From: Halorubrum salipaludis
Lineage (GTDB): Archaea > Halobacteriota > Halobacteria > Halobacteriales > Haloferacaceae
Assembly (NCBI RefSeq): GCF_002286985.1
Contig: NZ_NSKC01000001.1
Span: forward strand, 434,001 to 498,000
DNA: 64,000 nt
Direction: 5' to 3'
In this document: in pieces, positions 3,200-38,754 of the stretch
How positions within the stretch are numbered: position 1 is the stretch's first letter
How the letters are laid out: every line of letters starts with the position of its first letter
Translations under genes and position numbers: made by a program
The notes under the pieces: generated by a model
Told to the model about the DNA's origin: nothing
Database searches by the model: none
Seen by the model: the letters and a program-made list of their open reading frames with translations, nothing else

Positions 3200-3466
3200 T
3201 CGCTTATAAACAGACGCGCGGTGGCGTGCGCCTGCGAGCGCCCTTATAAGGGCGCGAGCAGCCCGCACGAGGGAGTCGCTGGCGGCTGTCGCCGCCAGCG
3301 ACGAGGCTGGGGAGGTACGAGGTGCGGTTGCCGTGCGGTCGGGTGGGACTCAAAGGGGCAGCCGCGAGGCGGGCGCAGGTGACGCAAGGACCGCAGGGAA
3401 CGAGCGAAGCGAGTGACCGAGGACCGCAGCGAACGTGCGCCCGCCTCGCGGCTGGGGCTTTGGAGG
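3200..3466 (+). ncRNA. Candidate structured RNA element, copy A
   Basis: One of three related elements in this window. A TTATAAAC box at 3204-3211 precedes by about 20 bases a set of nested stems. P1 pairs GCGTGCG (3224-3230) with CGCACG near 3264-3269. P2 is a perfect palindrome at 3238-3255. A fixed GAGGGAG follows. P3 has 11 perfect pairs (3275-3285 with 3292-3302). The fixed block GAGGCTGGGGAGG is at 3303-3315 and ACTCAAAGGGGCA at 3348-3360. P4 is a 19-bp perfect long-range stem (3359-3377 with 3436-3454), and the element ends in GGGGCTTTG. CAAAG and CTTTG also pair beyond P4. The block GGTGACGCAAGGACCGCA is inside P4. Short reading frames through it are not conserved between copies. Transcription and function are inferred, not shown. 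Confidence 0.55.
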
Positions 3467-3740
3467 AGATCGCGTCGATCGGCCGTTTATGAACAACGAG
3501 ACCAACGTACAGCCGAGCAACTGGGGCTTTGGAGGAGTTCGTGTCGATCGGCCGTTTATGAACAACGAGACCAACGTACAGCCGAGCGGCTGGGGCTTTG
3601 GAGGAGATCGCGTCGATCGGCCGTTTATGAACAACGAGACCAACGTACAGCCGAGCGACTGGGGCTTTGGAGGAGATCGCGTCGATCGGCCGTTTATGAA
3701 CAACGAGACCAACGTACAGCCGAGCGGCTGGGGCTTTGGC
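3452..3740 (+). repeat. 69-bp tandem repeat, four full units and a partial fifth
   Basis: Units begin CTGGGGCTTTGG at 3452, 3521, 3590, 3659 and 3728, exactly 69 bases apart. Units are near-identical and differ mainly at the base pair before CTGGGG (GC, AA, GA) and at GATCGCG versus GTTCGTG. Each unit contains GTTTATGAAC, close to the TTATAAAC box found upstream of the structured elements, and each starts with the 3' terminal block of copy A. Because 69 is a multiple of three, both strands stay open and give a spurious 23-residue peptide repeat. The array ends near TTCACCG and a TTATAAAC at about 3764. There are no spacers, so it is not CRISPR. Confidence 0.9.
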
Positions 3741-20628: not shown

Positions 20629-21030
20629 TTATAAATGAACGGCCGTGCCGCGGCGTGCGCCGGCGAGCGGCCGACAGGCCGCGAGCCGCACGCGCGAGGG
20701 AGGTCGGCGGCGGCCGCGATGCGGTGCGGTTCCGCGGCCGCCGCCGACCGAGGCTGGGGAGGCGCGAGGCGTTGGGCGGGGCGGGATGGGGCGGGACTCA
20801 AAGGGGCAGCCGCGAGGCGGGCACAGGTGACGCAAGGACCGCAACGAGGGAGCGGTAGCGACCGAGTGAGGAGCGTGGTTCGAGACGCCTCCGGCGTCTC
20901 GTCATCGCCAGAAATCGGAGATTTCTGGCTAGCAGTCAGAACGCTTCGCGTTCTGACGACATCACGAAAGGCGCTTCGCGCCTTTCGAACGACAGCGAAC
21001 GTGCGCCCGCCTCGCGGCTGGGGCTTTGAC
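20629..21030 (+). ncRNA. Candidate structured RNA element, copy B, with four extra hairpins
   Basis: A TTATAAA box is at 20629-20635. P1 is GCGTGCG (20653-20659) with CGCACGCG near 20687-20694. P2 is GGCGAGCGGCC with GGCCGCGAGCC. The fixed GAGGGAG follows. P3 is extended to 17 perfect pairs (20702-20718 with 20733-20749). GAGGCTGGGGAGG is at 20750-20762. P4 pairs 20807-20825 with 21002-21020 with one A-C mismatch, then GGGGCTTTG. Inside P4, after GGTGACGCAAGGACCGCA, is an enlarged region with four short perfect hairpins at 20881-20901, 20908-20928, 20935-20957 and 20965-20987. Stem sequences differ from copy A while loops and linkers are kept. Confidence 0.55.
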
Positions 21031-27369: not shown

Positions 27370-27486
27370 CTTCGTGATCGATTGCGGGAGTGGGTATAGC
27401 AAATTGGCTGATCGGTTGTTTATAAGTGAGTTTGTGATGTTGCTGTCGGCTGTTTATAAGTGATCGACGGTGTTGCGGTGAAGACC
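27370..27486 (-). repeat. Degenerate TTATAAAC boxes beside copy C
   Basis: Read on the minus strand, downstream of copy C, TTCACCGCAACACCGTCGATC is followed by CTTATAAACAGCC (about 27451) and ACTTATAAACAACC (about 27418). This is the same downstream layout as copies A and B. There is no open frame of coding character. Confidence 0.65.
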
Positions 27487-27745
27487 TGCAAAGCCCCAGT
27501 CGCTGCGGGGGGCGCACGCTCGCTGCGCGCCTCGCTCAGTCGCTGTCGCTCCTTCACTGCGGTGCTTAGCGTCGCCTAAGCGGCCCTCGCGACTACCCCT
27601 TTGAGTCCCACCCGACCGCAGACCGCAGCCTCACGCCTCCCCAGCCTCGTCGCTGGCGCCTTATAAGGCGCCAGCGACTCCCTCGCGCGTGCTCCTCGGC
27701 CGCGAAGCGGCCTCGGAGGCACGCGCCACCGCACCGTTTTTATAA
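27487..27745 (-). ncRNA. Candidate structured RNA element, copy C
   Basis: Inverted relative to the other two copies. CTTATAAAAAC is at 27745-27735, P1 is GCGCGTGC/GCACGCGC (27719-27726 with 27685-27692) and P2 a hairpin of about 10 pairs, CTCCGAGGCCGC with its complement. The fixed GAGGGAG follows. P3 is a perfect 30-base palindrome (27649-27678) centred on TTATAA. GAGGCTGGGGAGG, GGTCGGGTGGGACTCAAAGGGG and GACTGGGGCTTTG are all kept. P4 has AGTCGC pairing with GCGACT, where copies A and B have AGCCGC with GCGGCT: both sides changed together. Inside P4 a long variable region replaces GGTGACGCAAGG. Confidence 0.55.
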
Positions 27746-38579: not shown

Positions 38580-38652
38580 GCCCGGATGGTGTAGTGGCCC
38601 ATCATACGACCCTGTCACGGTCGTGACGCGGGTTCAAATCCCGCTCCGGGCG
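38580..38652 (+). tRNA. tRNA-Asp (GTC), copy 1
   Basis: 73 nt. Acceptor GCCCGGA pairs with TCCGGGC and the discriminator is G. The anticodon loop CTGTCAC gives GUC, flanked by the stem CGACC/GGTCG (the Asp set includes the GUC anticodon with G73). The T-loop is TTCAAAT. No intron, and CCA is not encoded. A promoter-like CTTATTT lies about 35 bases upstream. Confidence 0.96.
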
Positions 38653-38681: not shown

Positions 38682-38754
38682 GCCCGGATGGTGTAGTGGC
38701 CCATCATACGACCCTGTCACGGTCGTGACGCGGGTTCAAATCCCGCTCCGGGCG
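38682..38754 (+). tRNA. tRNA-Asp (GTC), copy 2
   Basis: Identical to copy 1 over all 73 nt and 29 bases downstream, so the pair is a recent or gene-converted tandem duplication, probably co-transcribed. The anticodon is GUC and the discriminator G. No CCA is encoded. GGCGTTCC follows. Confidence 0.96.

Follow-up and report, generated by a model that had tools for sequence, protein, structure and literature searches.

Copies of the element in the Halorubrum window

The analyzed window, a 64,000-nucleotide stretch of the Halorubrum salipaludis genome (contig NZ_NSKC01000001.1, positions 434,001 to 498,000), carries three copies of a structured intergenic element, two on the plus strand and one on the minus strand. 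Each copy contains, in order, a TTATAAA box, the stems P1 and P2, a GAGGGA linker, the stem P3, the blocks GAGGCTGGGGAGG and GACTCAAAGGGG, the long-range stem P4, and the end GGGGCTTTG. The component features, in window coordinates, are as follows.

3204..3210 (+): TTATAAA box of copy 1
3220..3268 (+): P1/P2 domain of copy 1; P2 is GCGCCC-TTATAA-GGGCGC, flanked by GA on both sides
3275..3302 (+): P3 hairpin of copy 1, 12 perfect pairs; a different hairpin in most other copies
3303..3315 (+): core block GAGGCTGGGGAGG of copy 1
3341..3358 (+): GGG-T-GGG-ACTCAAA-GGGG, comprising G tracts 1 to 3 and the 5' strand of the 5-bp closing helix (CAAAG, 3351-3355)
3359..3454 (+): P4 of copy 1, the long helix with conserved internal loops; covariance model match 3340-3462, 105.2 bits
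3455..3462 (+): G tract 4 and CTTTG, the 3' strand of the closing helix
3448..3739 (+): 4.2 tandem copies of a 69-bp unit, each repeating the right end CTGGGGCTTTG
20629..21030 (+): copy 2, with P3 at 20702-20749, core at 20750-20762, GGGACTCAAAGGGG at 20793-20806, P4 with four inserted perfect hairpins (about 20880-20996) and CTGGGGCTTTG at 21018-21028; covariance model match 20788-20907, 26.6 bits
27487..27745 (-): copy 3, with TTATAAA, P1-P3, core to GGGG at 27648-27596, P4 and CTGGGGCTTTG at 27499-27489; covariance model match 27489-27614, 77.2 bits
27794..27817 (-): left terminal inverted repeat of copy 3 (GCGGGAGTGAGTATTGCAGATCGG)
27384..27407 (+): right terminal inverted repeat of copy 3 (GCGGGAGTGGGTATAGCAAATTGG); the framed unit is about 430 bp

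A first-pass annotation made from the sequence alone had described these three copies, and its observation proved correct: all three lie where it placed them, with the blocks it described. Two of them fold far better than dinucleotide shuffles (z -8.2 and -8.4), and the third does so moderately (z -3.1). Four points required correction. The three copies are only part of a much larger set; copy 2 is longer because extra perfect hairpins are inserted in P4; and the proposed transcription start about 25 bases after the TTATAAA box, which had been named for checking, would cut P1, since the box starts 14-18 bases before P1 in 95 of 185 copies and no box was found in 65. In addition, the annotation had overlooked the four conserved G tracts, the imperfect terminal inverted repeats of copy 3, and the fact that the tandem repeat at 3448-3739 repeats the right end of copy 1. 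The units of this repeat are 95% identical, and each bears CTGGGGCTTTG and a TTTATGAA box; the right end is often repeated in this manner every 57-72 bases, other copies having 57- and 72-bp versions, for a reason that is not known.

Comparison with Rfam 15 at the gathering threshold returned only tRNAs in the window, including two tRNA genes of equal score that stand in tandem on the plus strand about 100 bp apart (38580-38652 and 38682-38754). At a relaxed threshold (E up to 5), seven element loci gave a single chance miRNA hit at E 0.73. No Rfam family therefore matches, in line with the earlier statement that no named family fits.

Copy number and distribution

To determine how widely the element occurs, the H. 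salipaludis genome was searched with the two conserved single-stranded blocks separated by a variable gap. This gave 73 exact-core matches and none for the pattern read backwards. A covariance model search, of the kind that had been proposed as a test of the family, was also carried out: a model of the 3' domain found 125 matches in this genome, at least 150 in a second genome, and 0 in four genomes outside the class. The window thus holds three of about a hundred copies, close to the genome-wide density.

The full core was detected in 47 of 52 genomes of the genus Halorubrum, with up to 118 copies each, and in none of 118 genomes of other genera of the family. A shorter core from the 3' (P4) domain, GGGACTSAAAGGGG, occurs in 261 of 391 haloarchaeal genomes, representing 61 of 84 genera. 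With the upstream G tract added, it occurs in 39 of 72 haloarchaeal genomes and in 0 of 224 genomes from other classes of the phylum. Phage records and viral contigs yielded no match.

Architecture and variation

In Halorubrum, the element reads from 5' to 3' as a TTATAAA box in about half of the copies, P1, P2 flanked by GA on both sides, GAGGGA, P3, GAGGCTGGGGAGG, a G-rich linker, GGG-Y-GGG, ACT, CAAAG, GGG, P4, GGG and CTTTG. P2 and P3 differ between copies as whole hairpins and are nearly always paired. P4 varies in length because perfect hairpins are inserted into it, and the four-hairpin module found in copy 2 recurs, with other stem sequences, in five further copies (loci L016, L025, L031, L038 and L045). 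In two copies (L012 and L022), the inside of P4 is inverted relative to the others, as if flipped by recombination between the arms.

Outside Halorubrum, the closing pair is G-C instead of C-G, such that the helix reads GAAAG/CTTTC. Most of those copies that were read lack the P1-P3 domain, although Halobaculum and some others keep a version of it. In several copies among L215-L232, from the genera numbered g37 and g34, an alternative apical part of P4 (CCCCTATC...GATATGTCGSTGAGCGACCGC) replaces the usual GCAAGCAC/GCGCAGCGAG loops. Repeated units such as ACGGCCGGTGACACAATCCACCG lie upstream of the element in genus g37 (L222 and L224), a possible counterpart of the Halorubrum right-end repeats. 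In six genomes (numbered G342, G202, G240, G357, G410 and G382), head-to-head pairs of the P4 element, CCCCTTTCAGTCCC...GGGACTGAAAGGGG, with short and often equal spacers, recur many times.

Covariation and strand asymmetry

Covariation across many copies had been named in advance as the criterion for a selected fold, and it was examined in an alignment of 34 diverse P4 domains. The alignment gave 25 consensus pairs, 20 of them with changes on both sides. Of all cells, 94.2% pair, against 64.8% in shuffles; 222 two-sided changes were counted against 77.5 in shuffles; and the covariation score is 0.662 against 0.163, a value reached by 0 of 500 shuffles. Sliding the partner by 1-3 columns drops pairing to 30-47%. 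A second count on 246 distinct outer stems agrees, with 92.1% paired against 62.9% and 858 two-sided changes against 251. Pairs inside conserved internal loops covary as well, as exemplified by columns 54-94 (CG 23, GC 8, GU 3).

Wobble G-U pairs outnumber A-C mismatches 56:14 in Halorubrum and 18:2 elsewhere, or 74 to 16 in total; an untrimmed count gives 128:46. In the smaller set, P2 shows 8:0, whereas P3 shows no excess (4:4). Related copies are counted separately, so these are not independent events, and no phylogeny-aware test was run. A decaying DNA palindrome should give equal numbers, so one given strand is selected to fold, or is exposed by transcription. Single-stranded DNA would give the same asymmetry.

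Conserved guanine tracts

The most conserved part of the element follows the pattern GGG-Y-GGG-ACTSAAA-GGGG-[P4]-GGGG-CTTTS, a canonical G3+ quadruplex motif with loops of 1 and 7 bases and a hairpin, in which two tracts face each other between two helices. In other genera, the base eight before ACT is G in 13% of copies, but the next three are G in 84, 96 and 95%, followed by C or T in 91% and then by GGG. All four tracts are present in 185 of 209 Halorubrum copies and 58 of 75 copies from other genera. The last tract and the tract at -7 to -5 were not part of the search pattern, so their conservation is not an artefact of the search, and an anchor that demands no G tract gives the same picture. 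In ten element-rich genomes, about 94% of GGGACTSAAAGGGG matches have GGGN before them. Formation of the quadruplex is an inference and was not assayed here; it is made more likely by the molar cytoplasmic potassium of haloarchaea. The conserved tracts and their spacing fulfil the sequence definition of a G-quadruplex element.

Genomic placement and turnover

With a codon-composition gene caller, none of 70 copies in the H. salipaludis genome lies inside a called gene, and a plain coding repeat was rejected on this ground. Of 69 copies, 40 (58%) lie between convergent genes, against 5 of 37 gaps of at least 50 bases in the window. Copy 3 follows the rps12-rps7 genes. At two gene pairs followed through the genus, sister species have a plus copy, a flipped copy, a core-deleted remnant, a copy with other stems, or nothing. 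The site is therefore not fixed, yet the shape is kept.

Terminal repeats and the search for a partner gene

The H. salipaludis genome has 35 places with the repeat GCGGGAGTGGGTATTGCAGATCGG within 3 mismatches. Of ten such loci inspected beyond the exact-core set, nine hold the same element and one lacks the core, and none shows a transposase between the ends; these observations leave it undecided whether the repeats are shared with a transposon. Target-site duplication, which the first-pass annotation had listed together with known MITE ends as grounds for rejecting its reading, was sought in 17 two-ended units of 425-625 bp, and no shared direct repeat was seen. Most copies lack such ends. 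Thus, a subset is MITE-like and the rest is not.

A Y1 transposase gene flanked by the repeats, as expected for a REP/RAYT system, was not found. Three genomes rich in the element (66, 25 and 38 exact P4 matches) have no Y1_Tnp match at E <= 0.001, and of 49 Y1 and TnpB loci only five contain the motif, at varying distances. These results argue against REP/RAYT and IS605-guide models but do not exclude all of them. Whether the element shares near-terminal palindromes with IS605-type transposons is not settled by the absence of a constant motif position at these loci, since PATE and transposon sequences were not aligned directly with it.

Interpretation

The explanation we favor, held as somewhat more likely than not, is a haloarchaeal family of dispersed, non-autonomous repetitive elements whose plus strand is selected to fold, most likely as RNA. 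In this view, the conserved 3' domain folds as a closing helix (SAAAG/CTTTS), then a G-tract layer, then the P4 helix, and the two G tracts just upstream (GGG-Y-GGG) can complete a quadruplex with the two facing GGG strands, while Halorubrum adds a 5' domain (P1, P2, P3) with GA-flanked hairpins. Whole hairpins are exchanged between copies, probably by conversion through the conserved single-stranded blocks, which would keep structure but not sequence. The fold is most likely the recognition signal of the element itself, for an unknown trans-acting factor that spreads or stabilizes it, and the element would survive downstream of genes because it does least harm there. The analysis directly demonstrates the copy number, distribution, covariation, strand asymmetry, G-tract conservation and intergenic placement, as well as turnover, inversion and hairpin exchange at orthologous sites; by contrast, transcription, quadruplex formation, RNA rather than single-stranded DNA as the selected molecule, the trans-acting factor, and a selfish rather than host-serving function are inferred from these data. 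No partner gene was found, and no transcript data were available, the G-U bias providing only indirect support.

The interpretation in the first-pass annotation, a candidate new haloarchaeal ncRNA family, is partly supported. A strand-specific fold under selection, the lack of a matching Rfam family, and a distribution across the haloarchaea are all borne out. That the element is an independent ncRNA gene is not supported or not shown, given the position and frequent absence of the TATA-like box and the gain, loss, flipping and rebuilding of copies at orthologous sites. Its statement that the element is not a plain IS end is only partly right, because about 35 copies carry imperfect terminal inverted repeats.

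Among the alternatives, a possible but less likely one is that the selected molecule is single-stranded DNA, in a REP-like or IS200/IS605-like (PATE-like) element whose folded strand is recognized by a Y1 (HUH) transposase in trans. The copies are high-copy intergenic palindromes, some genera have head-to-head pairs only 18-26 bp apart, as in composite REP repeats, Haloquadratum carries many PATEs derived from IS605 ends, and neither the fold nor the G-U bias distinguishes RNA from single-stranded DNA. However, the Y1 and TnpB surveys speak against it, stems are not conserved in sequence, and some copies have inverted terminal repeats. A host-serving 3'-end element that insulates or stabilizes the ends of convergent transcripts, which we likewise consider doubtful, would account for the strong excess in convergent gaps and downstream of genes and for the position of copy 3 behind rps12-rps7, but the same gene pair has the element in some species, flipped in others and empty in others, copy number varies from 0 to 150 or more between species, and no T tract was seen at the end.

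Independent small RNA genes with their own promoter, acting in trans, appear unlikely. A TTATAAA box stands at a regular distance in about half of the copies, and a second box, TATTTAAA, lies further upstream in copies with terminal repeats; yet the near box would start transcription inside P1, and a hundred near-equivalent copies with exchangeable stems is unusual for a trans-acting RNA. Least likely, and already disfavored, is the formation of perfect palindromes by template switching or gene conversion between arms without selection on the fold. Although P3 is almost purely Watson-Crick with few G-U pairs and whole hairpins are exchanged, this reading is opposed by the covariation of isolated pairs inside internal loops, by the G-U excess, and by the fact that the unpaired blocks and G tracts are the most conserved part across genera. 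A more far-reaching possibility, unlikely but compatible with the evidence, is a haloarchaea-specific class of RNA elements that depend on a duplex-quadruplex-duplex fold made stable by molar cytoplasmic potassium, spread by an RNA-structure-dependent mechanism unlike known MITE, REP or IS605 routes, and keep shape while exchanging whole hairpins.

If transcribed, this would be among the most abundant structured RNA families known in archaea, present in most haloarchaeal genera yet unannotated. It would link quadruplex motifs, whose use in haloarchaea is little understood, to a defined conserved fold that can be made and probed in the molar potassium of these cells. The hundreds of natural variants per genome, with equal shape and different sequence, are a ready dataset for fold prediction and for studying how repeats keep structure while exchanging parts.

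Comparison with known systems

A family of high-copy structured elements seems to have gone unnamed: the core sequence occurs in no haloarchaeal paper of the open-access literature searched, and other searches found nothing matching, although subscription papers and supplements were not covered and a prior description cannot be excluded. The element resembles REP, PATE, SMR and MITE elements and differs from each in a tested or recorded feature.

The PATEs and SMRs of Haloquadratum walsbyi (PMC3119063) are likewise transposase-free, high-copy elements with palindromes in a haloarchaeon, without target duplication. PATE ends resemble IS605 transposon ends, and SMRs are about 110 bp with prominent ITRs; the present element has a covarying fold of 250-400 nt and four G tracts, and no link to Y1 or TnpB genes was found. 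The REP/BIME/REPIN elements of bacteria also comprise more than 100 intergenic hairpins per genome, some as inverted pairs, but REPs are 20-40 bp with GTAG or CGTC tags and a partner RAYT gene (PMC3733652, PMC2817692), and the fold described here is far larger. The intrastrand triplex repeats TM-ECO of E. coli (PMC4666352) are similarly intergenic and defined by a non-B single-strand structure with G tracts, but they amount to 23 copies of 37 nt with near-fixed sequence and lack the P1-P4 architecture. The pilE G-quadruplex of Neisseria, with its cis-acting sRNA, places a quadruplex motif next to sequence that is exchanged by gene conversion, but it occupies one locus per genome without a folded repeat family and serves as an analogy only. 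Finally, copy 3 and about 35 others resemble MITEs in being 425-625 bp units with imperfect terminal inverted repeats, but they differ in that no target duplication is seen, most copies lack the repeats, and the conserved part is an internal fold.
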